From the IMG/VR virus record IMGVR_UViG_3300026953_000014, positions 1 through 32,843 of that record: 32,843 bases of DNA; one strand, given 5' to 3'. Both the position numbers and the translations under genes were made by a program. The stretch comes from a virus. Under the pieces are notes generated by a model. The model was given only the letters and a program-made list of their open reading frames with translations, had not been told where the DNA came from and did not search any database. Every line of letters begins with the position of its first letter. Within the stretch, counting starts at the first letter, position 1. Below are positions 5,808 to 24,131 of this stretch, in pieces.

Positions 5808-6811
5808 GCTGCCTCCTCGGGTACCGCGGCGGCGGTGAATGCCGCGCGGATCTGTGTAAGGGCGTTTGTGAGTGTGCGGACGTTGATGTATTCGCGCTGC
5901 CCGTCAAAGGCATCGCGCGTGGTGGCACCAGCGACCAGCGAAGCGATCTGCTTTTCTGCCTGTGCGGCTGGCATCTGGTCGAGCAGCTCACCGATCTCGC
6001 GGTGGATGATGCCGACCGCCTCGGGACGTTCGAGACCGGGCAGCTTGACCTTTGCGATGAGGCGGGAGTTCCACTGCTCGAGAGTTGCGCTGAACTGATC
6101 GAACTTCTTCTTGAGGTCGTGCGACCCGGCCAGGAGCAACGAGAAGTACGGCGGCCGGTCGAGCAGCTCGCGCACCGTCTCCAGGCTTTCGAGATCCAGG
6201 TGCTGTGCTTCGTCGATGACCAGCAGAACGCGCTGGCCTGTGAAGTCGAAGCGGATGTTATTCAGCATCTGGTCGATCTCGTTGGTGCAACGGCAGCCGC
6301 AGGATTGCGCGATGCGCCGCACGAAATCGCGGGGGCGGATGCCCTGCCGCGCGTAGACGTAGAACGCACGCGCGCCGTCCGCCTTGGCGATCTCAGCCGC
6401 GTTGACGGCCGCGACCTCGTGTTCGAGCACGAACGTCTTCTGCGATCCCGGAGGCGCGTACAGCATGTAGGCCACGGGCCGTGGCAGCAGCTGCTGGAAC
6501 AGGCGGTGAATCTCGCGCACGTTGGCCGTGTCGTAGAGCTCGCCCGCAACCGAGGTCACCGGGCCGACTGGATGCGCGACGATGAACTCGTCGATCGCGC
6601 GGACCAGATTGTGCGCGGAGCGGGCCACCTGCTCATAGCGATCCGCAAAGAAGTGATCTATCGAGACGCGCGAGTATCCGATGCGCGCAGCGAAGTCGGG
6701 GATCGCCAAACCAGTGCGCGCAAGATAGTCGCGTAGCCGCGCGCGGCAGGCGGCGTTGAGGTCGGCCTCTGCCTGAAGTGCGATCTTGTTACCTACCGTA
6801 TCGATTTTCAT
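5804..6811 (-). CDS. MuB/TniB-type AAA+ ATPase, transposition target protein
   Basis: This 335-residue protein should be the ATP-dependent partner that captures target DNA and activates the transposase. Residues about 25-60 form an N-terminal helix-turn-helix, as in MuB. The AAA domain follows: Walker A at 119-126 (APPGSQKT, K125), Walker B at 195-204 (VLLVIDEAQH, D200/E201), and a sensor-1-like LAGS at 227-230. The residue before the Walker lysine is Gln instead of the usual Gly, an oddity that keeps Lys and Thr. Size fits the family (about 310-340). The gene starts at ATG 6811, overlapping the transposase stop as ATGA; the A-then-B order matches Mu-type phages. Identification is firm; details of DNA preference are unknown. 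Confidence 0.93.
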   Translation of the reverse strand: MKIDTVGNKIALQAEADLNAACRARLRDYLARTGLAIPDFAARIGYSRVSIDHFFADRYEQVARSAHNLVRAIDEFIVAHPVGPVTSVAGELYDTANVREIHRLFQQLLPRPVAYMLYAPPGSQKTFVLEHEVAAVNAAEIAKADGARAFYVYARQGIRPRDFVRRIAQSCGCRCTNEIDQMLNNIRFDFTGQRVLLVIDEAQHLDLESLETVRELLDRPPYFSLLLAGSHDLKKKFDQFSATLEQWNSRLIAKVKLPGLERPEAVGIIHREIGELLDQMPAAQAEKQIASLVAGATTRDAFDGQREYINVRTLTNALTQIRAAFTAAAVPEEAA

Positions 6812-10231: not shown

Positions 10232-10531
10232 GTGACAGAACGAGAGAAGCTGTACTTCGTAAAGCGGATCGGAGACATGATGGATTCCACTAACGAACTC
10301 GACCTGAACAAAGAGGAACCGGGAAGCGGAAACACTATCAATGTCAACTCAGCTGACAACAGGGTTGCCGCCCGTGACTATATCGAGATCAATATTCATC
10401 TGAGCGATCAGGAGGCAGCAGGATTAGGCTCTGGAGAAGAGTCACCAGGCCTGACGCACCAGGAGCTGATCCGCCAGATTCGTAGTCTTGTCTCGCGCGC
10501 AGTGCGAAGTGTCCCGCAGGAAGCGGCCTAA
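10232..10531 (+). CDS. Small companion protein of the repressor, 99 aa
   Basis: Family not recognised with certainty. A central beta-like stretch (NTINVNSADNRVAARDYIEI, residues about 34-53) resembles the N-V-A-G/A-RD-Y motif seen in small proteins encoded beside phage repressors and in toxin-antitoxin-like effectors. The C-terminal helix (LTHQELIRQIRSLVSRAVR) may oligomerise. GTG 10232 follows GGAGAG at five bases and lies 18 bases after the repressor, so the two are probably co-transcribed. It could modulate the repressor or act in superinfection immunity; this is inference. Confidence 0.65.
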   Translation: MTEREKLYFVKRIGDMMDSTNELDLNKEEPGSGNTINVNSADNRVAARDYIEINIHLSDQEAAGLGSGEESPGLTHQELIRQIRSLVSRAVRSVPQEAA

Positions 10532-10539
10532 AGCCGAGC

Positions 10540-10565
10540 GCCGGAGCGTTGTACGGCGCTCCGGC
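10540..10565 (+). terminator. GC-rich hairpin after the repressor operon
   Basis: A perfect 9-bp stem (GCCGGAGCG / CGCTCCGGC) with an 8-base loop begins nine bases after the stop codon at 10531. No T-run follows (ATTATCGAT), so intrinsic termination is uncertain, but the position at the end of the immunity operon fits a terminator. Confidence 0.5.
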
Positions 10566-10631
10566 ATTATCGATAGGAGCACCAAAGGTCTTAAGGATCG
10601 GCGCATGACCGGTCAGAAAGTGAGACACAAA

Positions 10632-11636
10632 ATGAAGATAATTGCCCTAGCTGTCATCCTTTCTTCGGTTCCTCTGTTCGCGCAGAATTTTGAATTGAGG
10701 GAGCGTCCTAACGAGACCACGCGCATTTCTATTTTCCAGGCAGTGAGCGCGACCGCATCTGATGGGATCGACGCAATTCGTGCAGATGGTTCCTACAAGT
10801 GGAGCGTCACGCCAATCATCTCGAAGACATGGCAAGGTCAGGGAAAGGCGCTCCTCTTAGCGATCGAAGTGATCGGCAGTAATCTTCAGCCTTCAACTGC
10901 AGTGTTCTCGGTAGACGGAAAGAACTTCGTTTTGCAATCAGCCGACTGGCGAGTTGATAGCCGCGGGAACCTTGCAGCTCTTTTCGACAAAGAGTGGCTC
11001 GTACGTAACATTGCGAGTGCACACGATGTTTCGATCACTGTTTTTGCTCCGTCTCCGCTAACCGCAGATTTTCACGATGGGGATTTGGCCGTCTTTAGAT
11101 CGATGGTGCATGCCTATGATTCGGATGCGATGCATCTGGCGGCTGGAGAAGCAACGCCCGAGCCGGTTGTGCATATCGTTCCGTTTTCTGAAAAGAAGAG
11201 CCACACGCAGGTGAAAATAATTGCGCAGGAATCGTCGACTACGCCCTACGAGTGGGAAGTCAACGGGAGGATGGCAATGAGCTGTTCTGGAAATGCCTGC
11301 AGTGGCTATTACAGCACTCCGAAATCTGGGGTCCAGCAAGTTCAAGGTGCCGTCCTGAAGCTGCTTCGCCCGGATTCCTCTATCGTGATCGTGCAGTGCG
11401 TTTCAAAGGTGAATACGCTCTCAAGCGCAATTCTGGCGATAGATGCAGTCAATGCCGGAGACCCAAATTCTCCGACGGTTTATCGCGATTGCAGGGTCCC
11501 AACCCCTGACACTGTTGCAGACGCCGAATTCAAGCGTGATACGGTTAAACTCTCTTGGAGATTTGACGGTGCGAAGCATAGTGATTCCGAGACCTATCAG
11601 ATCGTCGGGGTGCTCGAACCAGTCAGCAATCATTGA
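10632..11636 (+). CDS. Secreted protein, probable lysogenic-conversion (moron) gene
   Basis: The protein has 334 residues from ATG 10632, with a clean signal peptide (MKIIALAVILSSVPLFAQ, cleavage likely after AQ). An in-frame start at 10488 would bury the signal and run through the hairpin. The mature part is beta-rich. The last 120 residues hold four cysteines likely paired as disulfides and a block (GAVLKLLRPDSSIVIVQC, then YRDCRVP, then SETYQIVGVLEP) resembling, from memory, a protein type common in Acidobacteriota genomes. Base composition is visibly lower in G+C (about 45% in sampled lines) than in the late genes. It sits between immunity and lysis modules, away from either operon, typical of cargo expressed from the prophage. 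Function unknown. Confidence 0.75.
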   Translation: MKIIALAVILSSVPLFAQNFELRERPNETTRISIFQAVSATASDGIDAIRADGSYKWSVTPIISKTWQGQGKALLLAIEVIGSNLQPSTAVFSVDGKNFVLQSADWRVDSRGNLAALFDKEWLVRNIASAHDVSITVFAPSPLTADFHDGDLAVFRSMVHAYDSDAMHLAAGEATPEPVVHIVPFSEKKSHTQVKIIAQESSTTPYEWEVNGRMAMSCSGNACSGYYSTPKSGVQQVQGAVLKLLRPDSSIVIVQCVSKVNTLSSAILAIDAVNAGDPNSPTVYRDCRVPTPDTVADAEFKRDTVKLSWRFDGAKHSDSETYQIVGVLEPVSNH

Positions 11637-11778: not shown

Positions 11779-11796
11779 AACTTGTCTCCCCGCTTA

Positions 11797-11854
11797 AAAC
11801 TATTCCATCTCATCCGTCTCTCGCGTGTTCATCACGGCGCGGCGAAGCCGCGCC
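11797..11854 (+). repeat. Duplicated 58-bp element, copy A, with GAA-loop hairpin
   Basis: The element opens with AAACTATTCCATCT and closes with a perfect hairpin, GGCGCGGC-GAA-GCCGCGCC (11836-11854). It matches copy B at 21216-21273 at 51 of 58 positions with no gap. Weaker similarity continues to a shared CCGTGA at 11886-11891. Both copies lie in the same orientation in non-coding DNA just before a late module, here the lysis genes. Confidence 0.85.
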
Positions 11855-12005
11855 CTAGGCTGGACTCACCTAAGGGGAAGCGACACCGTGAATCGCCCTT
11901 GAGAAAGGAGATCGCGGAGACTCGCCAGAGCGCGCGGGCAATGGCCCGGATGCAGGCAAAACAACCTGCTCCACCGGGCCGCCGCGTTCCCCAGGTGGAG
12001 GCCTG

Positions 12006-12521
12006 ATGAACGCGCAGCAGAACGCATTCCTGCAGATGGTGGTTCCACCCGCGCAAGCCGCGCAGCGCCGCTGGGGCGTGCCGGCATCGGTGTCGATCGC
12101 GCAGGCCATCCTCGAATCGAGCAACCAGGCAGGCTGGGGCCAGAGTGAGCTGACGCGCACGGCAAATAATCTTTTCGGCGTCAAAGCTGAGCACCTCAAC
12201 GATCCGAGTTCGTACGTCGAATTGCCGACGCACGAGGTGCTGAACAATCACCTCGACATGGTCGAGGACAAGTTTCAGCGCTACGACAGCCCTGTTGAGA
12301 GCTTCGATGATCACGCGCGGCTGCTGGCAACGGCGCGACGCTACCAGCCAGCGATGGCCGTGATTCACGACTCGACGGCGTACTGCGAAGCGCTGGAGGG
12401 ATGCGGATACTCGACCAACCCTCTGTACGCGGAGACGCTCGAAAAGCTGATCCGGATCTACGACCTCACGCAATTCGACGTGACCGACGACTCGACGGCC
12501 AGTGCATGGGTGCGCGGATGA
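12006..12521 (+). CDS. Glucosaminidase-type endolysin (GH73/FlgJ-like)
   Basis: The 171-residue enzyme should cleave peptidoglycan glycan chains at lysis. Residues 5-65 match the glucosaminidase fold: FLQMVVPPAQAAQRRWGVP, then SIAQAILESSNQAGWGQS with the probable catalytic Glu at residue 37, then ANNLFGVKA. A second conserved block (YDSPVESFDDHARLL) follows at about 95. There is no signal peptide, so release would need the holin encoded nearby. Start ATG 12006 has GGTGGAGG upstream; the stop overlaps the next gene as ATGA. Length fits single-domain phage lysins. Confidence 0.88.
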   Translation: MNAQQNAFLQMVVPPAQAAQRRWGVPASVSIAQAILESSNQAGWGQSELTRTANNLFGVKAEHLNDPSSYVELPTHEVLNNHLDMVEDKFQRYDSPVESFDDHARLLATARRYQPAMAVIHDSTAYCEALEGCGYSTNPLYAETLEKLIRIYDLTQFDVTDDSTASAWVRG

Positions 12522-13231
12522 CGACTTGGGCAAAATACGTTGCAGGCGTAGCGGTGATCGTGCTGCTGGTGCTGGCAGGCCGCGCGTGGCTAGCTCAGCA
12601 CGATGCAAATCTTGCGGCTGATTCGGCGAAGGGCGCCAGCGCGCCGGTGATTGCCGCGGCGCAGAAACAGATAGATGCTGCGAAGGCTGACGCCGCGAAG
12701 GCAGCATCGGATCGCGACGCGCAGCTGGCGGCGATCGAGCGGCAGCGCAAGGTGCCAGTCACGCCGCAGACCTTTGTCGCGGAGCTGCCGAAGACGATTC
12801 CGTCTCTACCGGAGCCGGTGACTGTGGTCTCGTCGTCGGCGACAAGTTCCGAGAAGCCTGCAGAGACCGGCAGCAAGGCGGCCGCGGGAGGCGTGTTGAT
12901 ACCCGCGGCCGACCTGCAGGCGCTCCAGAACTACAAGCTCGACTGCGACGCGACGGGCGTAAAGCTCGACGCCTGCCAGAAAATCGCCAACGCGCAGCTG
13001 GCGGAGCTGGCCGCCAGCCACACGCAGCTGCAGGCGGTGATCGCTGAGCGCGATGCGGATGAGAGGGTGCTGAAGGGCGGCACATTCTGGCATCGCTTGC
13101 TGCAGACGACGAAGTGCGTAGCGATCTCCGGCGGCGCGGCCGCGGCTGGTGCCTGGGTCGACAAGAGCCAGCGTGCGCGCGGTGCGGCGATCGGTGCAGT
13201 CACGGGCACGGTGGTTTGCGAGGCGTTCTGA
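12518..13231 (+). CDS. Membrane-anchored coiled-coil protein, possible spanin
   Basis: The 237-residue protein has an N-terminal membrane segment (residues 8-26, VAGVAVIVLLVLAGRAWLA), then an Ala/Lys-rich coiled coil (about 45-75), a Pro/Ser-rich linker, a second helical part, and a hydrophobic Gly/Ala-rich tail near the C-terminus (VAISGGAAAAGAW). Three of its cysteines are in the C-terminal half. The plan of inner-membrane anchor plus periplasmic coiled coil beside the lysin fits an inner-membrane spanin (Rz-like), although it is longer than usual. ATG 12518 overlaps the lysin stop as ATGA. Confidence 0.7.
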   Translation: MTTWAKYVAGVAVIVLLVLAGRAWLAQHDANLAADSAKGASAPVIAAAQKQIDAAKADAAKAASDRDAQLAAIERQRKVPVTPQTFVAELPKTIPSLPEPVTVVSSSATSSEKPAETGSKAAAGGVLIPAADLQALQNYKLDCDATGVKLDACQKIANAQLAELAASHTQLQAVIAERDADERVLKGGTFWHRLLQTTKCVAISGGAAAAGAWVDKSQRARGAAIGAVTGTVVCEAF

Positions 13232-13512
13232 TGGGCGCGCTAGATGAGATCGAAAAGCGGGCGGTTGGCTTTCTGGAGGAGAGCGACGGTTCGAAGTCGG
13301 CGAGCCGACTGTGCATGGTGCTCGTTATCGGCGTCACGCTCGGGGTTGTGTTGGGACTCTTTTTCAAAATCCGAGGCCCGATCTCGATGGCGGAGTTCAG
13401 CCTGGCCGTCGAGAAATTGGGGCTCTTCGCGGGGGGCACTTGTACTGCCCTCTATGGCATCAACCGCTTCGGCGATTTCGCTACCAGGCCAAAAGGCCCG
13501 GACAAGGAGTGA
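13231..13512 (+). CDS. Holin-like two-span membrane protein
   Basis: The 93-residue protein has a charged N-terminus and two hydrophobic segments at about residues 28-46 (LCMVLVIGVTLGVVLGLFF) and 59-78, ending in a charged tail (RPKGPDKE). Size, topology and position between the lysin and other membrane proteins fit a class II holin that releases the lysin. ATG 13231 overlaps the previous stop as TGATG. A longer in-frame start at 13114 is rejected because it gives an Arg/Cys-rich out-of-frame-like extension. Confidence 0.7.
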   Translation: MGALDEIEKRAVGFLEESDGSKSASRLCMVLVIGVTLGVVLGLFFKIRGPISMAEFSLAVEKLGLFAGGTCTALYGINRFGDFATRPKGPDKE

Positions 13513-13517
13513 ACCGT

Positions 13518-13694
13518 ATGTGGTACGTCGCATGTGTTCTTTTGGGCGTCGTTGTCGGCGCAGGTCTCTATCGTCGCTTCGGCGCTTCGGCTTCGGCAAA
13601 GTTCGCCCAGGTCGAGACGGCTGTGCGCAACCTCGAGCTCTCTGTGAGCTCACGCCTGCAGGCGGTCGAAGAAGCGCTCGGCCTCAAGAAGTAG
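13518..13694 (+). CDS. Small single-span membrane protein, 58 aa
   Basis: One membrane segment (residues 2-19, WYVACVLLGVVVGAGLYR) is followed by an amphipathic helix to the C-terminus. ATG 13518 has AAGGAG eight bases upstream; a GTG at 13509 overlaps that ribosome site. It is probably part of the lysis cassette, as an antiholin or accessory spanin, but this is inferred only from context and topology. Confidence 0.65.
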   Translation: MWYVACVLLGVVVGAGLYRRFGASASAKFAQVETAVRNLELSVSSRLQAVEEALGLKK

Positions 13695-13868
13695 AGTTCG
13701 CCGCCGCATAGACGGCGCTGAAAGGACGTAGCTCGCCAGATGGACTGTATCGCAATCGTTGTTTCGATCGTGCTCCTGCTGGCGATCCACTCGGAAATCC
13801 GGCGGCCCTGTCCGCAGAGCCGCACGCATCACACACGCGCACTGCGCATTGCCCTGGGAGAGTCACCT
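13695..13868. other. Short stretch before the Ig-like gene
   Basis: No independent gene is supported. The frame of the downstream Ig-like gene stays open from an ATG at 13740 and would add a 43-residue N-terminus with a membrane-like segment (CIAIVVSIVLLLAIHSEI), but its AAAGGA site is 13 bases away. A small GC stem (CGCCG/CGGCG) lies near 13699-13714. Confidence 0.4.
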
Positions 13869-14198
13869 ATGAATTCAGCAGTTCTGATCGTTGGCCAGTC
13901 GACGATTGCCAAGGCCGTTCCGCTTGAGTCGGACGGCACCACCGAAAACATCAACGCCGTGGTCACGTCGGCGAGCTGGTCAGTCAGCGATCCGGCCATC
14001 CTGGAGCAGACCGTCAACTCCGACCTCACTGCGACCTATAAGGCCCTGGCGGCAGGTACGGCGAGCGTCAGCCTCTCGGCCGTTGTGACCGATGCAGACG
14101 GCACGATCACCACCCTGTCCGCGTCGGCCACGGTGAGCGTCAGCGCTCCTCCGGCGCGCACGGCGAGCATCGGCATCGAGTTCAGCACGCCTGCCTAG
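13869..14198 (+). CDS. Ig-like (Big-type) beta-sandwich protein, 109 aa
   Basis: The sequence reads as one bacterial Ig-like domain: a beta strand (SAVLIVGQSTIAKAVPLE), the characteristic W-S-V-S-D-P motif at about residues 38-43, then TYKALAAGTASVSLSAVVTD. Big-type domains occur on phage surface proteins, where they bind host-cell carbohydrates. ATG 13869 has GGGAGAG seven bases upstream; without the possible 13740 start there is no signal peptide. Placement before the terminase genes is unusual for a virion surface protein. Its role may be decoration of the particle or host surface. Confidence 0.7.
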   Translation: MNSAVLIVGQSTIAKAVPLESDGTTENINAVVTSASWSVSDPAILEQTVNSDLTATYKALAAGTASVSLSAVVTDADGTITTLSASATVSVSAPPARTASIGIEFSTPA

Positions 14199-14215
14199 AC
14201 GGCGATCCACTCAAC

Positions 14216-14237
14216 GCCGGCGCGCTGATGCGCCGGC
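14216..14237 (+). other. Perfect GC hairpin between two small beta-protein genes
   Basis: An 8-bp perfect stem (GCCGGCGC / GCGCCGGC) with a six-base loop fills most of the 63-base gap before the next gene. No T-run follows. It belongs to the series of hairpins in late-region gaps. Confidence 0.6.
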
Positions 14238-14261
14238 ACAACCTTAAAGCGGGAGAGACCT

Positions 14262-14771
14262 GTGAGACGACACATCGGATTGCTGATTGCCCTGGCGCTG
14301 CTGCTGCCCATCGCGGGTCTCGCCGCAGCGCCAACGAAGCCTGCGGCCGCATCCGCGAAGACGCCGAGCACGCGGCTGACGCTGCGCGCCCAGGCGAGCG
14401 GCACCACGACGGGCGTGCCCAGCGGCATCGATTACAGCTGGACGCCTGGCGACAATGCTGCGCCGCCCTGCTCGACCACGACAACGACCAACTGCATCCT
14501 CGGCCAGCAGCTGACGATCACGCTGCCTGGCGGCGGCGAGCTCATCATCCAGGCCGGCACAGGCACGGGCCAGATCGGCCCAGCTGATGCGGCGTACTCA
14601 TGGGCACCCGGCGGGCAGATTGCCTACGGGACATATCAATCGAGTTTGGTGACGGCGGCCTACGACAACAGCGGTGCGCTGATCCTGTCCTCTGCTGCGG
14701 TGGCCACAACGGTCAACGCACTGACGACGCTCAATCCGCCGACCGGGCTCGCGGGCGTGGTGCACAAGTGA
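14262..14771 (+). CDS. Exported beta-rich protein with signal peptide, 169 aa
   Basis: The GTG start at 14262 (GGGAGAG upstream) begins a signal peptide, RRHIGLLIALALLLPIAGLAA, with cleavage likely after AAA. The mature part is Thr/Gly/Ala-rich with a repeated YSWTPGD / YSWAPGG motif, suggesting two copies of a small beta motif. It has two cysteines (PPCSTT, NCILG) that could pair. I do not recognise the family. It forms a run with the Ig-like gene before it and the lipoprotein-like gene after it, with which it overlaps by TGATG. Confidence 0.65.
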   Translation: MRRHIGLLIALALLLPIAGLAAAPTKPAAASAKTPSTRLTLRAQASGTTTGVPSGIDYSWTPGDNAAPPCSTTTTTNCILGQQLTITLPGGGELIIQAGTGTGQIGPADAAYSWAPGGQIAYGTYQSSLVTAAYDNSGALILSSAAVATTVNALTTLNPPTGLAGVVHK

Positions 14772-15079
14772 TGCGGATCCTCGCCATTGCGGTGATCTGC
14801 TGCGCGGGCTGTGCCGCGGCGCACCAGCGGCCTGTCGAGTTGACCTGGACGGGCGACGGCAACGACGGCACACTCGGGTCGGCCGACGTAGCCGTCTGCG
14901 GAGCTCGTGACTGCAAAACCGGCTTTGAGGTCCGCGACGAGACGGCCGGCACGTCGACGCCGCTGCCGATTACGTCGCGGAGCTATCTCGGATCGGACGC
15001 GACGCATCGGTATGCGATCCGGACTGTCGGCCTCGATCACGAGGGCAGCGTCCTGGTCTCGCCCTGGGAGGAACCATGA
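14771..15079 (+). CDS. Small exported fibronectin-like protein, possible lipoprotein
   Basis: The 102-residue product starts with a short hydrophobic signal ending in cysteines (MRILAIAVICCAGCAAAHQ). C15 could be lipidated, though the preceding residues are not a standard lipobox. The rest resembles a single fibronectin type III-like domain (RPVELTWTGDGNDGT, later YAIRTVGLDHEGS). ATG 14771 overlaps the previous stop as TGATG. Beside a spanin-like gene it could be an outer-membrane spanin partner, but the beta-rich body fits a binding protein better. Confidence 0.6.
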   Translation: MRILAIAVICCAGCAAAHQRPVELTWTGDGNDGTLGSADVAVCGARDCKTGFEVRDETAGTSTPLPITSRSYLGSDATHRYAIRTVGLDHEGSVLVSPWEEP

Positions 15080-15312
15080 GGGCGGCAACGGGGCAGTGGA
15101 AGCCGAACAACCGGCGGCAGCGGGAGCTCTGGCAGAAGCTCCTCTTTGTATGGATAGGGCTCTTCCTTTTCGGTGCGCTTTGCGCCTGCCTCCAGAGCTG
15201 TGACGGAGGCGGCGGCTACGGCCGCAGATGTTTCGCCCGGCGGGGCACTTTCGGGGTGCCGGAACGGGCCGGAAGACGATTTTCGGATTTCGGGCCGCCA
15301 CGAGGGCGGTGA
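15076..15312 (+). CDS. Small membrane protein, 78 aa, uncertain C-terminus
   Basis: A basic N-terminus (residues 1-20) and one membrane segment (about 22-40, LLFVWIGLFLFGALCACL) look genuine, and ATG 15076 overlaps the previous stop as ATGA. The last 30 residues are Gly/Arg-rich and read like translation of non-coding G-rich DNA, so the functional gene may have been truncated or frameshifted. Role unknown; perhaps lysis-related by location. Confidence 0.5.
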   Translation: MRAATGQWKPNNRRQRELWQKLLFVWIGLFLFGALCACLQSCDGGGGYGRRCFARRGTFGVPERAGRRFSDFGPPRGR

Positions 15313-15360
15313 GGCGTCGGGTAAGGGGATGGGCGCGAAAAATTCAAGAACGGCGTTCTC

Positions 15361-15396
15361 GGGGCGCTGGCGGGCGAAACAGGGGCGGTTTTGGGG
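15361..15396 (+). other. Canonical G-quadruplex motif in a G-rich stretch
   Basis: Four G-runs (15361-15364, 15372-15374, 15382-15385, 15393-15396) are separated by three loops of exactly seven bases, meeting the standard G-quadruplex rule. They lie within the non-coding gap 15313-15439, whose plus strand (and the preceding 80 bases) has many other runs of three to five Gs. No other gene or repeat is seen in this gap. Confidence 0.6.
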
Positions 15397-15439
15397 TCTG
15401 GTTTGACCCCCGAAGGACGAAAAGGGGGAGCTTGGGGTG

Positions 15440-15958
15440 ATGGAGGCGGCATTGGGCGAGGTGAAATTGCCGAGCGGCGAGGTGGAGGCGAAGTTCCGGT
15501 CTGGGTGGCTACGGCATTTCCGGGTCGTCCTGAGTTCAGCGAGTGGCGCGGCGGTGGTGCTGGGCATTTTTACCCTTCTCCAGCAGCGCCCTTCGGAGGG
15601 GTTCCGGTTGCTGGACTCGTGGGGGCCGTGGCCAGTGCTCGCGATTGTGGTGCTTGTCCTGGCCGCGCCCTTTCTCGCCAGGCTGAGCGAGACCATCGGG
15701 AGTGCCTTCACGGCGATCGTCGCTCACACGCAGCGGACGGCCGACGCGCAGACCAAGACGGCCGAGGCACTGAGCGAACTCGCCGACTACGGCAAGCGGC
15801 AGTTTGAGGAGGTGGAACGACTGGCCGTGTATGCGGCCAGGGAGTTTCCGGGGGTCTATGAGCGCTTCGATCAAACAGACCAGGCGCTCAAGGAGCTGGC
15901 GACATCGATGACGCTGCTTCACCAGCGGCTCGATAGCGGCAAGGGGGAAAGCAGGTAG
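15440..15958 (+). CDS. Two-span membrane protein with C-terminal coiled coil
   Basis: The 172-residue protein has membrane segments at about residues 32-48 (SSASGAAVVLGIFTLL) and 63-81 (WPVLAIVVLVLAAPFLARL), followed by a long amphipathic helix from about 85 to the end, probably a coiled coil. I do not recognise the family. The start is placed at ATG 15440; a GTG just before it is possible. It is four bases from the next gene and may be the last lysis-related or a membrane-associated structural gene. Confidence 0.6.
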   Translation: MEAALGEVKLPSGEVEAKFRSGWLRHFRVVLSSASGAAVVLGIFTLLQQRPSEGFRLLDSWGPWPVLAIVVLVLAAPFLARLSETIGSAFTAIVAHTQRTADAQTKTAEALSELADYGKRQFEEVERLAVYAAREFPGVYERFDQTDQALKELATSMTLLHQRLDSGKGESR

Positions 15959-15961
15959 GCA

Positions 15962-16294
15962 ATGGGGACCGAGATGAGAGCGGAACGCGAACTGATTCAG
16001 GCACGCCGGCGACGGGGCATCATCCTCAAGCTGGTGCGGCAGGGGCATGAGAACCAGTTTTCGCGCATGGATGACTTCGAGGTCTGGGCCATGCTGCAGA
16101 AACTGGGCCAGAGCATTGGCCGGGACCAGGCACTGACCTTGCTGCAGGATCTCGAAGTGCTCGACTACATCGACTACAAGTCGTCGATCAATGAAATCAC
16201 CGGCCGCACTGAGCTGAGCCAGATCCAGCTCACGGCAAACGGACTGCGGTTCGTGACAGCCGGCCGCAGCAATGACGATGTGCTGTTCGCCTGA
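15962..16294 (+). CDS. Small winged-helix-like protein before terminase genes
   Basis: The 110-residue protein contains a helical core followed by a beta wing (VLDYIDYKSSINEITGRTELSQIQLT), consistent with a winged helix. Mu-type phages carry a similar-sized protein immediately before the DUF3486/terminase genes as I recall, with unassigned function. ATG 15962 follows AGGTAGG; ATG 15974 is an alternative. A role in packaging initiation or DNA recognition is plausible from position only. Confidence 0.7.
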   Translation: MGTEMRAERELIQARRRRGIILKLVRQGHENQFSRMDDFEVWAMLQKLGQSIGRDQALTLLQDLEVLDYIDYKSSINEITGRTELSQIQLTANGLRFVTAGRSNDDVLFA

Positions 16295-16296
16295 CC

Positions 16297-17043
16297 ATGA
16301 CAAAGCCGAGACCAAAAACCGGAGAACCACGCGTCAAGCGGCAGCCGCTCAAGATCGACCAGCTGCCGCAGCCTGTCCGCGAATCGATCCAAGGGCTCTA
16401 TGATCGCGGGCGCACTTGGATGGAGATCGAGGAGCAGTCAGCACGGCCCTACAGCGATCAGTGGGAGCAGGACGGCGGCGGCTTTGTGCCATGGGAAAAG
16501 CTCGATCTGACCGTGCTCGAGGAGTTTCCGCAGCTGCGGATCCCGAAGTCGACGCTGCAGCGCTGGTATGACTTGCGCGTGCGCCAGGCGCGAGACCAAG
16601 TGCTCCGGGAGAGCGCCAAAGCGCGCGAGTTTGCGGCCGCGTTCGCTGGGGCTGATCTCAGCGGCGCAAACTCCGCTGTGGTCAACGCGCTTCGCGACCA
16701 GGTGTTTTCGCTGATGCAGGAAGCGAGCGTCAGCGATCGCATGCTGCTGGTGAAGAACCTACAGAACCTCACGCTGGCCATGACCCGCATTCAGCGAGTG
16801 GAGCTGCAAGCCAAACGTGTTGATGCGGACATTGCAAAGGCCGAGGCCGAGCGCGCCAAGCTCGCGGCCGAGGCTGGCGATCCGCGCGAGATTTACCTGC
16901 TCGCCGCGCAGGATCTGCTGAAGAAGCTGCGCAGCCGCAAACAGGTGCGCGAAGTCATCGACCCGATTCAAGAGGATCTAGTCCAGGAGCTATCTCATGC
17001 CGCTGAAGCGTTCGCAAAACAAGTCGAAGCGTCAGCGGCGTGA
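16297..17043 (+). CDS. Terminase small-subunit-like protein (DUF3486, Mu gp27-like)
   Basis: The 248-residue protein has an N-terminal HTH-like segment (residues 20-100) containing KIDQLPQPVRESIQGLY and, after a Trp-rich loop, IPKSTLQRWYDLRVR, then a long helical part with a coiled coil at about 165-190 (KRVDADIAKAEAERAKLAAE). This fits the DUF3486 family placed before the large terminase in Mu-like phages, which recognises phage DNA for packaging. It ends 47 bases inside the large terminase gene. ATG 16297 follows the previous stop by two bases. Confidence 0.8.
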   Translation: MTKPRPKTGEPRVKRQPLKIDQLPQPVRESIQGLYDRGRTWMEIEEQSARPYSDQWEQDGGGFVPWEKLDLTVLEEFPQLRIPKSTLQRWYDLRVRQARDQVLRESAKAREFAAAFAGADLSGANSAVVNALRDQVFSLMQEASVSDRMLLVKNLQNLTLAMTRIQRVELQAKRVDADIAKAEAERAKLAAEAGDPREIYLLAAQDLLKKLRSRKQVREVIDPIQEDLVQELSHAAEAFAKQVEASAA

Positions 17044-18628
17044 CGAAGCCGGCGCAAGCCTACGTGCGGCGTTCGACAAAGTCCCCGTCAATGTCCCCGT
17101 AGCCAGCGCCGATCCGACGCGCAAAGATGCAGGTCAGCTGCTCAACCAGGCATGGCAGCTTGCCACGGACATCACCGCATTCGCGGTGAAGTACCTACAT
17201 CACTTCATGGAGGATCCGGAGACCGGAAAATTCATTGAACCGGCCGAGTTCCACCGTGAGCTGTATACGATCCTGCTCACTGAACGCTTCGCAGCGATCG
17301 CTGCGCCACGCGAACACGCAAAGTCGACCGTTGTCTCGGTTATCTTTCCGCTTTATTGCATCTGCTACAAGCTGCGCCGCTTCATCGTTCTCATCGGCGA
17401 TACGCAGCCGAACGCAGCGCTGCAGCTCGCCTCGATCAAGGAAGAACTCGAATCCAACGCCAAGCTGCGCGAGGACTTTGGCGACCTGGCTGGCGACAAG
17501 AAGTGGGACGTCAACGATTGCCGCACGTCCACGGGCATTACGATCGTCGCCCGCGGTGCAGGCCAGAGCATGCGCGGCCTGCGTTATCGGCAGTACCGCC
17601 CTGACCTGATCATCTGCGACGATCTCGAAAACGAAGAGGGCGTCGACAATCCAGAGACGCGCGAAAAGCTCATGAAGTGGTTCAAGGGAACTGTCATGAG
17701 TCTGGGCAAGAGCGCCCAGATCTTCGTGGTCGGTACGATCCTGCACTTCGATTCGTTCCTCTCAAATCTGTTGGACCCCGAGAAGTTTCCGCGGTTCGTA
17801 AAGCGGCGCTACGAGGCCGTCGACGACGAGTGGACAGTGGAATCGGTGCTGTGGTCGGCGAAGTGGGACCTGCAGTCGCTGAAGGATAAAGAGATCGACG
17901 TCGGTTCGATCTTCTTCAACCAGGAGTTTCGCAATCGTCCGATCAGTGCCGATACACAGGTGTTTCAGGAGGAGTGGATTATCCGGCATCAGTACCGCCG
18001 TGCGGAGCTCGAAGGGAAGCAGGTCATCAAGGTGACCTACTACGACCCGGCGATCAGCCAAAAGCGGCGTGCAGATTTCTTCGCGTCAGTGACGCTGGGA
18101 GTCGATTCTGAGGGCGTGCTGTTCGTGGACCGCGCTACGCAACACAAGATGCCGTACACGAAGCAAAAGCAATTCATCCTGGATCGCTACGACGAGGAGC
18201 AACCATACATCGTCGGCATCGAGATCCAGGCGTACCAGGAAGCGCTCAAGCAGGAAATCGACGAGCAGAGCCGGAAGACAGGCCGATACATCAACGTGGT
18301 CGGTGTGGCGAACCTGACGGACAAATTTCTCCGGATATCGAGCATCTCGTCTCTGGTCGAAAACGGCACGATCCGCTTCTGCCTGGATGGCACACAGAAG
18401 ACGCTGATCCAACAGCTGCTCTACCTGGGCAAGATCAAGGACGATCTGGCTGACGCGCTGCAGGGCGCTGTTCAGCTGGCGCGTATGTTCAACGGCCGTG
18501 CGGCGTTCGCGGTTTCTAAAACGCAGACAGGTGGCCGCAATCCAGATGCCGGCCGGGAAATTATGGGCGGCCATAGCCGCGGAAGCGGCGATTCCATCGT
18601 CCGCGAGAGGAGATCGAGATGGGCTTGA
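16997..18628 (+). CDS. Terminase large subunit (packaging ATPase and nuclease)
   Basis: The 543-residue motor protein has an ATPase domain with a Walker-A-like motif at residues 103-111 (APREHAKST), a Walker B at 203-210 (DLIICDDL, with E211), and the nuclease domain starting near 345. Nuclease acid residues are likely D350 (TYYDPAIS), E409 (VGIEIQAYQ) and D483/D486 (DDLADAL). The R-E-H-A-K-S loop is typical of terminases packaging by headful, as in Mu-like phages. It should cut and pump phage DNA with its flanking host DNA. The basic N-terminal 15 residues may bind DNA. AGGAGC precedes ATG 16997, and the gene overlaps its neighbours at both ends. Confidence 0.93.
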   Translation: MPLKRSQNKSKRQRRDEAGASLRAAFDKVPVNVPVASADPTRKDAGQLLNQAWQLATDITAFAVKYLHHFMEDPETGKFIEPAEFHRELYTILLTERFAAIAAPREHAKSTVVSVIFPLYCICYKLRRFIVLIGDTQPNAALQLASIKEELESNAKLREDFGDLAGDKKWDVNDCRTSTGITIVARGAGQSMRGLRYRQYRPDLIICDDLENEEGVDNPETREKLMKWFKGTVMSLGKSAQIFVVGTILHFDSFLSNLLDPEKFPRFVKRRYEAVDDEWTVESVLWSAKWDLQSLKDKEIDVGSIFFNQEFRNRPISADTQVFQEEWIIRHQYRRAELEGKQVIKVTYYDPAISQKRRADFFASVTLGVDSEGVLFVDRATQHKMPYTKQKQFILDRYDEEQPYIVGIEIQAYQEALKQEIDEQSRKTGRYINVVGVANLTDKFLRISSISSLVENGTIRFCLDGTQKTLIQQLLYLGKIKDDLADALQGAVQLARMFNGRAAFAVSKTQTGGRNPDAGREIMGGHSRGSGDSIVRERRSRWA

Positions 18629-20307
18629 TTCCGCAGCGAGTCAAAGACATGCTTACGCGCCGGAGCACGACCGAGCGCATGAATGCCACCGTGATGACCA
18701 CGGCCGAATCCTTGCGCTGGGATGCAGCGCACAAGGATGGTGAACAAAAGAAGCTGTTCGATCTGGCTCAGTCGATCCTAAAGACCGGCAAGCTGACCAA
18801 AGAGCAACGCGCGCAGATGCAGGAGTTCATGACGTCGGAGGCCGTCGCGCCGCAGCTCTTCACGCTGACCACGGGCGACGGCGAAGATCCCGGTTTCCGG
18901 CGCATTACGTCGCTGGCCACGCTGCGCGACCTAAACCCGCTCATGCATGACCGCATGCTACAGGTCTGCTATTTTCTCCGCGTCACCACGCCGTTCGGCA
19001 AACGCATCGTCGAGATCCTGACTGACTACACCATCGGCAAGGGCGTGCGCATCACCGCGAAGGATCCGCGCGTGCAGGATGTGATCGACGACTTCTGGGA
19101 CGACGAAGTCAACAACATGGACGACAACGTCGAGCAGTGGTCAGACGAGCTGACCACGTTCGGCGAAGAATGCATCCCGGTGGCTGTCAATCCTGTGAGC
19201 GGCCAGGTGCGCGTCGGTTACATCGACCCGATGAACATCGACACCATCCAGTTCGCGGAGATGGCCACAGCCAACGGCACGGCGTCGATCAATGTGCCGT
19301 ACGCGGTACGTCTACGCCGCGAAGTGGGTGAAGTTCTGCAGAAGCCGATGCAGTTGGTGCGTCGCATTGAGGACGTGAATTCGCCGGCATTTGGCTTTCT
19401 GGACGGTGAATGCTTCTACTTCACGCTGAACAAGGCAAAGTCTGCGAGCCGCGGCTTCAGTGAGCTGTTCGCTCTGGCCGACTGGATCGATCTGTTCGAC
19501 CAGATGATCTTCGACTTCGGCGACAAGGTGCGCTTTCTCAACCAGTTCATCTGGCACTACACAGTGAACGGTGCCGACAACACGAAGGTCAAAGAGTTCA
19601 AGGATTCGCTCACCAAAGATCCGCCAAAACAGGGCGGCATGCTTGTTACGAATGAGCAGGTGAAGGCGGAGCCGCTGACTCCGGATTTCAAGGGATCGGA
19701 TATGAACGACGGTTCGTCGATGGTCAAGAAGTACGGCCTCGGCGGTGCGGGTATTCCGCCTGTGCTGATGGGTGACGGTGACGACGCAAACCGTGCGGCG
19801 TCGCTCGAGATGAACGCGCCCTTCGTCAAGAAGATCCAGAAGCGCCAGAACCACCTCGGCCGTTGCCTCACGCAGGTGCTGACATTCCAGATCGAGTGGG
19901 CGCAGCGTGTAGGCGCGTTGCCTAAGGGAATCGACACGAGCTTCGCGATCGAGTTCCCAGAGATCGTAGTCAAGGATCTGGCGAAGGGTGCGAGCACGCT
20001 CACTGGCGTTGCCACGGCTGTGCAGACAGCGCAGGAAGAAGGCTGGATCACTGGCGCTACTGCGGCGCGCGCCGTGCACACCGTTATGAGCGAGATCGGC
20101 GTCGACATCCCCGACACGGCCGAGGAGTACAAAAACGCCCAGGATGAGAAGAAGCAGCGTGACGCAGACAAACAGGCGCAGTTCTACGATCAAGGACGCC
20201 TGGCTGCAGCGCTGAACGCGAAAACGCCGAACGGCAACGGTGATGCAGCAGGCGAAGGCCCCGACGCCGAGATGATCAACGATGCGGATGCCAAGGAGCC
20301 TGAATAG
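18619..20307 (+). CDS. Portal protein
   Basis: The 562-residue protein forms the dodecameric ring through which DNA enters the head. Evidence is position after the terminase, size, and portal-like features: an N-terminal helical region, a central block (residues about 105-215) with RVTTPFGKRIVEILTDYTIG and an acidic VIDDFWDDEVNN, a long helix near 300-330, the segment GGAGIPPVLMGDGDDANRA (about 375-393) typical of portal helical cores, and an acidic Ala/Asn-rich C-terminus. A GAGGAGA ribosome site precedes ATG 18619, which overlaps the terminase end by ten bases. It is longer than the Mu portal (gp29), so the exact portal family is uncertain. Confidence 0.88.
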   Translation: MGLIPQRVKDMLTRRSTTERMNATVMTTAESLRWDAAHKDGEQKKLFDLAQSILKTGKLTKEQRAQMQEFMTSEAVAPQLFTLTTGDGEDPGFRRITSLATLRDLNPLMHDRMLQVCYFLRVTTPFGKRIVEILTDYTIGKGVRITAKDPRVQDVIDDFWDDEVNNMDDNVEQWSDELTTFGEECIPVAVNPVSGQVRVGYIDPMNIDTIQFAEMATANGTASINVPYAVRLRREVGEVLQKPMQLVRRIEDVNSPAFGFLDGECFYFTLNKAKSASRGFSELFALADWIDLFDQMIFDFGDKVRFLNQFIWHYTVNGADNTKVKEFKDSLTKDPPKQGGMLVTNEQVKAEPLTPDFKGSDMNDGSSMVKKYGLGGAGIPPVLMGDGDDANRAASLEMNAPFVKKIQKRQNHLGRCLTQVLTFQIEWAQRVGALPKGIDTSFAIEFPEIVVKDLAKGASTLTGVATAVQTAQEEGWITGATAARAVHTVMSEIGVDIPDTAEEYKNAQDEKKQRDADKQAQFYDQGRLAAALNAKTPNGNGDAAGEGPDAEMINDADAKEPE

Positions 20308-20309
20308 CA

Positions 20310-21206
20310 ATGGCGAGCTCCCGCGCACAGGCCTACGCGCAGCAGCTGGCGGACCTGACGGACCAGGCGAAGGCGCTGACGCCGGAGGCGCAGAAGCGCA
20401 TCCTCAAGCTGCTGGAGGACGCAAACCGCGAGATCCTCGCGGATCTGGCGCGTACGCCTCCGGATAGCTATACAGCCGCGCGTCTGCAGGCTCTGAAGGC
20501 GCAAGTCGATCGTGTGATGGGCGAATTCGCTCGCCAGGCATCCAGCCAGGTCGAATCGATGCAGATGCAAACGGCGCTCGATGCGGCGCACGCGGTCGAT
20601 GCCACTGTGGCCGCCGCTACAGGTAGGCTCGCCGTGCAGCCTGTGCTCGATCGCGCATCGCTCCAGGTGATCCAGGGATACACGGCCGACTTGATTACGG
20701 GGCTGAGCCATGAGGGCGCAGCCAGGGTAAACGCGGCAGTGCAGCGCGCGTACCTGGGCGGATCCAACCTGCAGCAGCTGACGGCGCAGATCGGCCGGGC
20801 GCGCTATGGCGCGGAGTACACCGGCATCTTCGGAGCGATCGGCGAGCACACAATGTCGGTTGCCAGCAACGAGATCATGCGCGTCCACTCCGTCACGTCC
20901 TACACGCGCATCAAGGACCTTTCCGAGCAGCATCCCAACCTCGGCAAGGGATGGCGGCACATCCCGGCGGCGCGCGTGCCGCGTCTGGCGCACATCAAGG
21001 CAGACGGTCAGGTGGTCAAACCCGATGAGCCGTTTGTAGTCGCCGGCGAAGATTTGATGTATCCTCGAGACCCGAAGGGCTCTGCGGCAAACACGATCAG
21101 CTGTCACTGCCTTCTCTATCCGGCCGTTGCTGCAGCAGACCTCAAGCCCTCCGACCGCGAGCGCGATCTGTTGATACAGCACGGTATCTCGGTAGTTTCC
21201 GCCTGA
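20310..21206 (+). CDS. Phage head morphogenesis protein (Mu gpF / SPP1 gp7-like)
   Basis: The 298-residue protein has a helical N-terminal two-thirds and the diagnostic C-terminal region of the Mu F-like family: VPRLAHIKADGQVVKPDEPF (about 226-245), then a GEDLMYPRDPKGSAANTISC segment with the conserved Cys/His pair (CHC, 271-273). These proteins are minor head components bound near the portal and needed for DNA packaging or ejection. The start is ATG 20310, two bases after the portal stop. It is the last gene before the second copy of the duplicated hairpin element. Confidence 0.88.
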   Translation: MASSRAQAYAQQLADLTDQAKALTPEAQKRILKLLEDANREILADLARTPPDSYTAARLQALKAQVDRVMGEFARQASSQVESMQMQTALDAAHAVDATVAAATGRLAVQPVLDRASLQVIQGYTADLITGLSHEGAARVNAAVQRAYLGGSNLQQLTAQIGRARYGAEYTGIFGAIGEHTMSVASNEIMRVHSVTSYTRIKDLSEQHPNLGKGWRHIPAARVPRLAHIKADGQVVKPDEPFVVAGEDLMYPRDPKGSAANTISCHCLLYPAVAAADLKPSDRERDLLIQHGISVVSA

Positions 21207-21215
21207 TTTAGCTAT

Positions 21216-21273
21216 AAACTATTCCATCTTTTCCGGCTCGCGCGGCTTCACCACGGCGCGGCGAAGCCGCGCC
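21216..21273 (+). repeat. Duplicated 58-bp element, copy B, with GAA-loop hairpin
   Basis: This copy begins AAACTATTCCATCT and ends with the same perfect hairpin GGCGCGGC-GAA-GCCGCGCC (21255-21273); it matches copy A at 51 of 58 positions. A TATAAA box overlaps its start (21213-21218). Similarity continues more loosely to a shared CCGTGA at 21310-21315. It fills the 126-base gap between the gpF-like gene and the capsid-maturation genes. Confidence 0.85.
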
Positions 21274-21332
21274 ATAAGCTTGCCTCGTAGTCATCGCGCA
21301 AAGCGTTGACCGTGACATGGAGGCACCCACCA

Positions 21333-21686
21333 ATGGCAAACGAAACGACCCTTCCTGCAGCGCCGGCGCACCTGCCTGAGAGCGCAAAGAAGCAGTGGCG
21401 CGCTGGCTTCGCCAAAGCGTTCGAGCTGGCCAAGCGCGATAACCCCGAAGACACCAATGCGCAGCGTTCCGCGGCGACCAAGTCCGCAAACGCTATGCTG
21501 GCGATTCCTGAGCCGAAGTCGGCCGCCGACATCGACGCGCTCGAAGAGTGGCAGGTCATGCCCAAGACTCGCGAGACGCGCGACGTTGAAGGCGTCAGCA
21601 CGCGCGTCTGCGTCACGAGCGACGGCCGCAAGTACTCGTTCCCCGTTGAAGACGAAGTCTCGACGTCGAAGGGCAAGAAGAACTAG
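21333..21686 (+). CDS. ChaB-like protein, 117 aa
   Basis: The N-terminal half (residues 10-60) resembles ChaB-domain proteins: LPESAKKQWRAGFAKAFELA with conserved Trp, then a polar loop and helix (AQRSAATKSANAML). The C-terminal half is beta-like and ends in a Lys-rich tail. ChaB-like genes are often found beside the capsid protease in siphophages; their role in head assembly is not established. ATG 21333 is chosen for GGAGG nine bases upstream; in-frame TTG 21306 lacks support. It is 39 bases before the capsid fusion gene. Confidence 0.65.
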   Translation: MANETTLPAAPAHLPESAKKQWRAGFAKAFELAKRDNPEDTNAQRSAATKSANAMLAIPEPKSAADIDALEEWQVMPKTRETRDVEGVSTRVCVTSDGRKYSFPVEDEVSTSKGKKN

Positions 21687-21725: not shown

Positions 21726-24131
21726 ATGACAAAGACAAATCAGCAATTTCTTCTTACGGCGGAAGCGGACATCTCGCTCGATGAGCGGATGTCGCTTCTG
21801 AACGGCGCTCTGCTTGAGGCGTTCGGCCGCGATGAGGACGGCTGCCAGCGCTTCTACCTGCTCGACGCGTTCGATGAGTATCTGATCGCGCGTGGACCGG
21901 AGCAGAAGCTCTACCGCGTGCCCTACACTCTCGCGGATACGGATGTGACGTTCGGCGACGCGCAGGAAGTCACGCAGGCTTACGTGCCTGTAGCTGAGAG
22001 CTGCGCCTTTGTCGCGGAAGCCGATGCGGGCTCCGAAAGCGGCAAATACCAGATCGTTGTGCTGAAGGCTGGATGGGGCACGGGCGCAATCAACGGTCGT
22101 GCGCTCCCGCACTATTTTCCGAAAGAGTTCGTCGCGAGAGTGGCTGAGGCCGTTGCGAACAAGCCGTTCGGCCGCCGTCACCCTGACCAGAACGGCCCCG
22201 ATCCGACGGGCGCGACCGATCCGCAGCGCATCGCGGGATGGCTTGAGGCGGGCGGCATGGTCGGCGATGAGGCGCATGCCACGGTGAACCTGTTCAGCGC
22301 TGAGAGTGACCTGCGCTCCCGCCTGGACGACGCGCGCACTGCGAAGAAGATGGATCTCTTCGCCGTCTCGATGCTGGCCACCATCGGCTACAAGGCCGGC
22401 ATGGTCGACGGCAAGCAGTGCATTGTCGCCGAATCCTTGCCGGAGCTCTATTCCGTCGATCTGTGCCAGCGTGGCGGTGCGGGCGGACGTTTTCTGACGG
22501 CATCCAGCGAAGCCGCCAGTTCTGTTGCAGCGCTGCAGCTGGGCGCTGTTGATGCCAACTCCACTGCGATCGCCCCACAGGCTCGCACCAACCGCGGCGG
22601 CGTTGCGATCGCTGCTGAAGGAGCATTTATGAAGAAGTCGATTCTTCAACTGCTCGACGCGCTTCGGAAGAACAACGCCGCGCGCTGCGCCGAGCTCTCT
22701 CTCGAATTCCACTCGACTGCCGAGGCGGACTATCCGGCGTTTCTGGAAAAGGTCACCACGGCGCTGGCTGGCGGCGCTCCCGCGACCGGCACATCTGCGG
22801 CGGCCGTGACGGCCGAGTCGGCTGCGCAGATCCTGGCTGACGCGCAGCGCGTACAGTCTCGCAATCGCATGGAGTCGAAGTTTGTCGACTCAAAGCTGCC
22901 CAAGCCTGCGCTCGAGCTCGTGCGTGGTCACCTGGAAGCAATGCTGACCACTGAGGCTCAGCTGTCTGACGAGAAGATCGACGCCGAGATTGCCAGCGTT
23001 CGCAAGGCGTTCGCGGCCTTTGAGAACGTCGGAACCGTTCACCCGCGCGCCGGCGTCGTGCTGGAATCCGGCGAGAAGCAGGCGCTGGCGATGGAAGCTG
23101 CGCTGGGCGTCAAGGAGTCGATGGGCAAGGGCGTCCCCGCCTTCCGCGGCCTCCGTGAGGCTTACACCACCATCACTGGTGACTGGAACCTTGAGAAGCT
23201 GGGCCGTGGCTTCACGGGCAACGTCAGGCTGACGTCGGAAGCCGTGCTGACTGGCGACTTCCCGAACATCCTGCTGAACTCGATGACCAAGCGGCTCCTG
23301 CAGGATTGGTCGGAGGACCAGCTGGCCTGGCTGTCCGACATCTACACGAAGGCCAGCATCAGCGATTACAAGCTGCAGGATCGCGTGCGTGAGGGCTACT
23401 TCGGCGAGCTGGCGACGGTCAACGAAGGTGCCACCTATCAGGAAATCACCAAGCCGACCGACGAACGCGTGAGCTACTCGGTTGCGAAGCGCGGCGGCAT
23501 CCTGACGATCAGCGAGGAGACCATCCGCAACGATGATCTCGGCGCAATCTCGCGGTTTCCCGGCCGCCTGGCGCGTGCCGGCCGCTGGACTCTGCGGAAC
23601 TACATCACCAACTTCCTCGCGGCCAACGTCACCTATGGCGGCGACTCTGTCTCCTTGTTCAACGCCGGCCATAACAATCTCGGCGCGACTGCCCTCTCTG
23701 TGGACGCGTTGATCGCAGCCGAGCTCGCGATCAGCACGCAGACCGAGAAGGACTCAGGCGAGCCGCTGGGCCTGACGATGGACTGGATCATGGTGCCGCC
23801 GGCGCTGCAGGCTACGGCGCGCGCAATCAACCAGACCGACACCGCGGGGTCGAACCAGTTCTTCCAGCGGTTCGGCGCAAACAACGAGCGCATCTACGTC
23901 AATCCGAAGCTGACCGATGCGAATGACTGGTATGTCGGAACGCGGCAGTCGAACGCTCCGTTCCTCGAAGTCGGCTTCCTCGACGGCATCGATCAGCCGC
24001 AGATCTTCCTGGCCAACCAGCCCACCGTCGGCACGCAGTTCACCGCGGACGAGCTGCAGTACAAGGTCAAGATGGTCTTCAACGGCGCGATCGTCGACTA
24101 CCGCGGCGTCTACAAGGCCGTCGTCGCCTAA
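21726..24131 (+). CDS. Prohead protease / scaffold / major capsid protein fusion
   Basis: The 801-residue polyprotein has three parts. Residues 1-100 match the beta-rich head seen on some prohead proteases (LYRVPYTLADTDVTFG). Residues about 108-245 are the serine protease: GRRHPDQ with probable catalytic H152, the GW segment at 171, and S215 in DLFAVSMLA. Residues about 300-430 are helical and Ala-rich, fitting a scaffold. From about 450 on is the major capsid protein, with a conserved block at about 645-700 (HNNLGATALSVDALIAAELA, later LTMDWIMVPPALQATARA). The protease would remove the scaffold after shell assembly. Protease-capsid fusions are known in phages. An internal ATG at 22629 behind AAGGAG could yield scaffold plus capsid alone. 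A strong hairpin follows the gene. Confidence 0.9.
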   Translation: MTKTNQQFLLTAEADISLDERMSLLNGALLEAFGRDEDGCQRFYLLDAFDEYLIARGPEQKLYRVPYTLADTDVTFGDAQEVTQAYVPVAESCAFVAEADAGSESGKYQIVVLKAGWGTGAINGRALPHYFPKEFVARVAEAVANKPFGRRHPDQNGPDPTGATDPQRIAGWLEAGGMVGDEAHATVNLFSAESDLRSRLDDARTAKKMDLFAVSMLATIGYKAGMVDGKQCIVAESLPELYSVDLCQRGGAGGRFLTASSEAASSVAALQLGAVDANSTAIAPQARTNRGGVAIAAEGAFMKKSILQLLDALRKNNAARCAELSLEFHSTAEADYPAFLEKVTTALAGGAPATGTSAAAVTAESAAQILADAQRVQSRNRMESKFVDSKLPKPALELVRGHLEAMLTTEAQLSDEKIDAEIASVRKAFAAFENVGTVHPRAGVVLESGEKQALAMEAALGVKESMGKGVPAFRGLREAYTTITGDWNLEKLGRGFTGNVRLTSEAVLTGDFPNILLNSMTKRLLQDWSEDQLAWLSDIYTKASISDYKLQDRVREGYFGELATVNEGATYQEITKPTDERVSYSVAKRGGILTISEETIRNDDLGAISRFPGRLARAGRWTLRNYITNFLAANVTYGGDSVSLFNAGHNNLGATALSVDALIAAELAISTQTEKDSGEPLGLTMDWIMVPPALQATARAINQTDTAGSNQFFQRFGANNERIYVNPKLTDANDWYVGTRQSNAPFLEVGFLDGIDQPQIFLANQPTVGTQFTADELQYKVKMVFNGAIVDYRGVYKAVVA
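22618..22631 (+). promoter_or_regulatory. Internal ribosome site and start inside the capsid fusion gene
   Basis: AAGGAG (22618-22623) lies five bases before an in-frame ATG (22629-22631, codon 302), right at the protease/scaffold border. Use of this start would give a 500-residue scaffold-capsid product, so that capsid could be made in excess over protease. This parallels nested scaffold genes in protease genes such as lambda C/Nu3. Confidence 0.65.

Follow-up and report, generated by a model that had tools for sequence, protein, structure and literature searches.

Among transposable phages, late control has been worked out in detail for Mu with its Mor/C proteins. In Mu, the C-activated late promoters before lys and I have poor −35 and −10 elements and share a 10-bp match (PMC4461284). 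A second point of reference is the small winged-helix protein BldC of Streptomyces, a host developmental regulator mostly discussed as a repressor, whose DNA contacts are spaced 9 bp apart and whose sites are 9-bp direct repeats (PMC5859096, PMC11963761).

We analyzed a 32,843-base IMG/VR contig of a Mu-like phage (the window, meaning the whole stretch of DNA analyzed) that carries two copies of a noncoding element. We judge it likely that the two copies are late promoters of this phage and that a small phage-encoded protein of the HTH_17/BldC/Xis type acts on them. Like Mu Plys and PI (PMC4461284), they would form a pair of late promoters for lysis and head-morphogenesis genes with mutually similar sequences, they have a −10 without a good −35, and they probably depend on a phage activator, the candidate gene for which lies at the mor/C position. 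The Mu pair also supplies the precedent that the sequence-only reading, which knew of no such paired element in described transposable phages, had missed. Unlike in Mu, tandem 9-bp (or 18-bp) direct repeats replace the C site, a palindrome sits in the spacer of some lysis promoters, and no Mor/C protein (PF08765) was found in 38 relatives, a comparison to which the window, its left end missing, does not contribute. The system works like Mu late control and is not a member of the Mor/C family.

The likeness to BldC on the smeA-sffA and whiI promoters (PMC5859096) lies in a small winged-helix protein without a coiled coil, whose modeled fold is the nearest, and in 9-bp direct repeats of variable number with coverage reaching the −10 region. 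In contrast to BldC, the protein here would be a phage late activator, and a two-domain form with 18-bp repeats exists among these phages. HTH_17-class excisionases (Pukovnik Xis 4J2N, lambda Xis, RdfS; PMC11963761) have the same type of fold and assemble cooperatively head to tail on DNA, as we propose here by analogy; however, their sites are the attachment sites of tyrosine integrases, whereas those described here would be promoters and belong to a transposable phage.

The two copies and their phage

The minus strand of the window carries MuA- and MuB-like genes, the former marking the Mu-like type and the leftward early operon, and the plus strand carries endolysin, Mu gp27-like terminase, TerL, portal, F-like, and capsid genes. 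The window’s relatives are IMG/VR contigs and, more distantly, Acidobacteria MAGs; an acidobacterial host (presumed Acidobacteriota) is therefore likely, as judged from these kin. No GenBank phage matched the region at the DNA level, and the single distant portal relative there was Microcystis phage Mae-JY22. Our comparisons drew on about 100 related metagenomic contigs, which are kin to one another. An apparent cargo gene with a signal peptide (10488–11636, plus strand) lies between the regulator region and copy A and was found, among the relatives compared, only in L027 (and L029).

The copies, at 11797–11854 and 21216–21273, align without gaps at 51 of 58 bases, as first described, and the match extends to 11792–11867 and 21211–21286 (63 of 76 identical). 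Within the 32,843 bases, BLAST recovered the second copy at E 2.5e-18 and no third; a degenerate form of the lead likewise matched only these two sites of the window, with 0 expected in shuffles. The earlier placement also held: both copies are noncoding, on the plus strand, and ahead of the endolysin gene (12006) and of a small precapsid gene (ATG 21333). The features are as follows.

6808–8955, minus: MuA-like transposase (PHROG transposase, 4.4e-77; Mu-transpos_C)
11801–11836, plus: copy A array, four tandem 9-bp units TATTCCATC TCATCCGTC TCTCGCGTG TTCATCACG, the putative array to which the activator of the lysis promoter would bind (lag-9 and lag-18 periodicity across the lysis promoters of 33 relatives)
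11836–11854, plus: palindrome of copy A, GGCGCGGC-GAA-GCCGCGCC, lying in the spacer and separated from the −10 by 1 nt (8-3-8-1 geometry; covariation)
11856–11861, plus: predicted lysis promoter −10, TAGGCT (TAnnCT ranks first among 256 patterns in lysis leaders)
11868, plus: predicted lysis transcription start, at the A of TCA and 7 nt past the −10 (TCA kept at that spacing in 31 aligned promoters)
12006–12521, plus: endolysin gene, the first clear gene 3′ of copy A (PHROG endolysin families, best 1.8e-41)
21220–21255, plus: copy B array, four tandem 9-bp units TATTCCATC TTTTCCGGC TCGCGCGGC TTCACCACG, the head promoter’s putative activator array (with syntenic counterparts in L004, L020, and L032)
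21255–21273, plus: palindrome of copy B, the same in sequence as in copy A (head-site counterpart missing in L004, L020, and L032)
21275–21280, plus: predicted head promoter −10, TAAGCT (its place relative to the array matches that in copy A and that of the TAATCT of L004, L020, and L032); a start is expected near 21287
21333–21686, plus: small gene directly 3′ of copy B, in a scaffold-like position (ORF with ATG at 21333; syntenic in relatives)
21726–24131, plus: capsid gene 3′ of copy B, 801 aa, major head and protease families (PF25209, 2e-35; PHROG head families)

Anatomy of the probable promoters at the lysis and head sites

Each copy looks like an activator-dependent late promoter in which tandem 9-bp units lead, through a palindrome or a plain spacer, to a −10 and a start. 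In 44 nonredundant lysis leaders, anchored on a downstream CCAGAG motif, TAnnCT was the most enriched of 256 gapped patterns (32 of 44 observed vs. 10.1 expected, z 7.1; the next pattern reached 4.8). Across 31 aligned promoters a TCA is conserved with its A 7 nt after TAnnCT, a distance that is the spacing of a presumptive −10 and its start. No −35 signal rose above chance in these promoters (TTGACA match 2.49 vs. 2.69 in shuffles). The TATAAA of copy B, earlier pointed to as a potential promoter element, does not qualify as the −10: it is not conserved, whereas the TAnnCT just 3′ of the hairpin is.

Upstream of the box, the promoters repeat themselves. Over bases −75 to −18 relative to TAnnCT, self-similarity in 33 lysis promoters was 0.360 at lag 9 (z 8.3) and 0.366 at lag 18 (z 7.8), figures that shared descent of the promoters inflates; the next strongest lag was 2 (z 4.0), and random genomic sets never exceeded 0.326 in 500 draws. 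Array starts are quantized at 55 (6 × 9 + 1) bases from the −10, as in both window copies, or at 64 (7 × 9 + 1), as in L010 and L027. The units are also in phase with the −10 (G 264.8 vs. a rotation null of 35.7, s.d. 11.1), a value to which common descent contributes.

A profile built from the two copies recovered the element from relatives, at one syntenic position or at both; these sites share the lead CTATTCCATC, a run of 9-base units of TATCGCAGC type, and the TAnnCT box. The sequence-only reading had joined lead and hairpin into one shared element; the lead is indeed kept in relatives, but the hairpin is not always. In some relatives the head copy lies between the small gene and the capsid gene rather than before the small gene, and no clear −10 was found in those with the copy directly before the capsid gene. 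Many relatives also have a long hairpin (10–14 bp) directly 5′ of the capsid gene’s ribosome-binding site (L048:13127–13263, L040:5566–5660, L030:13092–13190, and others). These hairpins are unrelated in sequence between phages, often follow CTATTCCA-type units, and have no clear −10.

We then matched each phage’s head region against its own upstream half. The best match lay ahead of the lysis gene both in the window and in L004, L018, L020, L024, L037, L045, L046, L047, and L054, and in a comparable region, in which no homologous endolysin was found, in L027 and L033. Pairs were strong in the window, L033, L045, and L047 and weak in L018 and L046; several genomes, among them L005, L010, L017, L025, L031, L035, L036, L038, L043, and L048, had no within-genome pair. 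The pairs of L024, L033, L037, and L045/L047 are unrelated in sequence to that of the window. Both sites change sequence in step while keeping their position, as expected if they were read by one phage-specific factor.

The spacer palindrome and the lysis leader

The hairpin GGCGCGGC-GAA-GCCGCGCC was confirmed as an 8-bp stem closed by a loop of GAA (−16.2 kcal/mol). With at least seven of eight pairs, the 8-3-8 geometry recurs at a distance of 1 nt upstream of the −10 in 10 of 33 lysis promoters, compared with 0.3% in shuffles. The suggested check for compensatory changes was positive: 91% of cells pair across 13 sequences, G-U changes occur as well, and one stem pair is A-T instead of G-C in four of the 13. 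Stem covariation exceeded 500 of 500 shuffles, a figure inflated by kinship among the sequences. The loop varies freely (GAA, ATA, AGA, GTT, TTT, ATT, TCC, ACA).

These stem changes, together with the long hairpins that several relatives have before the capsid gene too, could mean that function resides in the hairpin, as an RNA element of read-through transcripts such as an insulating terminator or a processing site, with the lead incidental. We hold this to be improbable. The hairpin is missing from many lysis promoters and from the head sites of L004, L020, and L032, while the 9-bp array and −10 stay; because these head sites do without it, it is not the essential part. It is followed by CTAGGCT or ATAAGCT rather than by a terminator U run, and it keeps a fixed 1-nt distance to the −10 with an unconstrained loop. 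It also lies at about −13 to −32, upstream of the predicted start, and would therefore be outside the promoter’s own transcript, contrary to the proposal of a structured leader. An N4-type hairpin promoter needing the GAA loop was rejected as well, given the freely varying loop and the relatives’ head sites without a hairpin.

The element is palindromic, GC-rich, and intergenic, and low-scoring partial matches occur in genomes of the presumed host phylum, features that would suit a host REP-like repeat captured twice. As far as we searched, this origin is excluded for practical purposes: 396 Acidobacteriota genomes held no full-length copy (best 41 bits), and the palindrome with any loop occurred in 29 of 297 genomes, mostly as a single copy and with unrelated loops. 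In 2.9 million viral contigs, GCGCGGCNNNGCCGCGCC followed by N-TAnnCT matched eight contigs; seven of the matches are lysis promoters of this group, and the eighth lies in an unrelated phage. The earlier interpretation is thus borne out in part, its duplicated late promoter being well supported and its structured leader and captured repeat not.

On the promoter reading, the palindrome is a partly conserved addition to the lysis promoter, perhaps an operator for a second regulator; that role, or an aid to promoter opening, is a guess. The window’s head copy probably arose by copying of a lysis-type promoter.

The lysis leader itself has the look of a structured RNA, in the window (11868–12005) and in about 46 relatives. 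It has a hairpin right at the 5′ end (e.g., AGACC-TGAAC-GGTC), a covarying stem around AAAGGAG, the conserved CCAGAG, and a further long stem. The loosely conserved tail ending CCGTGA that had been assigned to copy A is the 5′ arm of this separate covarying stem (CCGTGA at 11886–11891 with TCGCGG at 11912–11917). Strong leader stems occur in 26 of 46 leaders, compared with 7.4 expected and a shuffle maximum of 13. RNAalifold gave a weak consensus on a misaligned alignment, and no Rfam family reached its gathering score; a Hammerhead_II match scored 16 bits where the cut-off is 37 and was taken as a chance hit.

A candidate activator and its domain number

The window contig ends inside the early operon, at base 1. 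In relatives this operon runs on to a GemA-like gene (a weak Pfam match, below the cut-off) and then to a last gene at the place of Mu mor/C, which encodes an HTH_17 (PF12728) winged-helix protein of one domain (about 88 aa) or two. Four one-domain proteins match PF12728 at or above the Pfam cut-off, as do most two-domain ones. An HTH_17 match is present in 37 of 50 contigs with the lysis region; no contig of 36 kb or longer lacks one, and a few of the matches diverge (G028, G035, G036). From these genomes we infer that the window’s phage encodes its own HTH_17 activator beyond the contig’s left end, and that this protein would bind the arrays and activate.

The one-domain model (pLDDT 81) is nearest in fold to Pukovnik Xis and BldC–DNA complexes (Z 8.1 to 4J2N, 7.8 to 6AMA, and 7.7 to 6AMK, over 51–54 residues); Foldseek gave probability 1.00 but E above 0.001.

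Another early gene of the window (252–971, minus strand) encodes three tandem Myb/GcrA-like helix-turn-helix repeats and a C-terminal CxxC...H...H motif. It was set aside as the activator, having a clear relative in one phage (L032) and a weak one in another (L043). The contig of L032 continues for ∼2.3 kb beyond the genes matching this part of the window, with a GemA-like gene and an HTH_17 gene.

If the HTH_17 protein reads the arrays, domain number should track repeat length. Before computing, we set the prediction that one-domain genomes would show 9-bp and two-domain genomes 18-bp periodicity, with classes assigned from the proteins; the idea had come from two examples noticed by eye, and one of them (L155) belongs to the test set. 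Lysis promoters of one-domain genomes (n = 13) gave z 8.4 at lag 9 and 4.8 at lag 18, and those of two-domain genomes (n = 17) gave 0.8 and 4.1, so that domain number tracks repeat length (p 0.003 on label permutation). Head sites leaned in the same direction. Most one-domain head sites had lag-9 z values of 1.4 to 4.4. At two-domain head sites the lag-9 z never exceeded 0.9; L037 and L038 reached 3.4 at lag 18, and several others had neither 9-bp nor 18-bp periodicity.

Some evidence favors a different arrangement, in which another phage regulator, such as the protein of 1922–2386 (minus strand), drives the late promoters and the HTH_17 protein is a repressor or controls transposition. That early gene is conserved in 19 relatives and its product appears winged-helix-like by eye, with no Pfam match, and the best PHROG matches of the HTH_17 protein are excisionases, a frequent role of HTH_17 proteins. 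We nevertheless think this arrangement unlikely: the link between domain number and promoter repeat length was shown for no other gene, the HTH_17 gene lies at the Mu mor/C position, and its fold relatives bind 9-bp repeats.

With the HTH_17 protein as activator, late control would run as follows. Late in the lytic cycle, the small winged-helix protein of the HTH_17/BldC/Xis type would be made from the last early-operon gene and would assemble head to tail on the tandem 9-bp units upstream of a −10-only promoter, whereby host RNA polymerase would start 7 nt after TAnnCT. Transcripts from copy A would serve the lysis genes, and those from copy B the scaffold and capsid genes. A broader proposal, on which our confidence is evenly divided, is that a widespread Mu-like group runs its late program by a filament-forming activator of the BldC/Xis type, with the count of winged-helix domains setting the repeat length (one for 9 bp, two for 18 bp), ladders and activator coevolving in each phage, and the spacer palindrome adding a second, lysis-specific control.

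The promoter layout known from Mu is apparently served here by proteins of an unrelated class, ones that assemble along DNA. Nature provides one- and two-domain versions, each with its own ladders, and with them a ready-made experiment on the way winged-helix regulators arranged head to tail measure DNA; the promoters and the position of the activator gene are regulatory landmarks for annotating poorly known soil phages.
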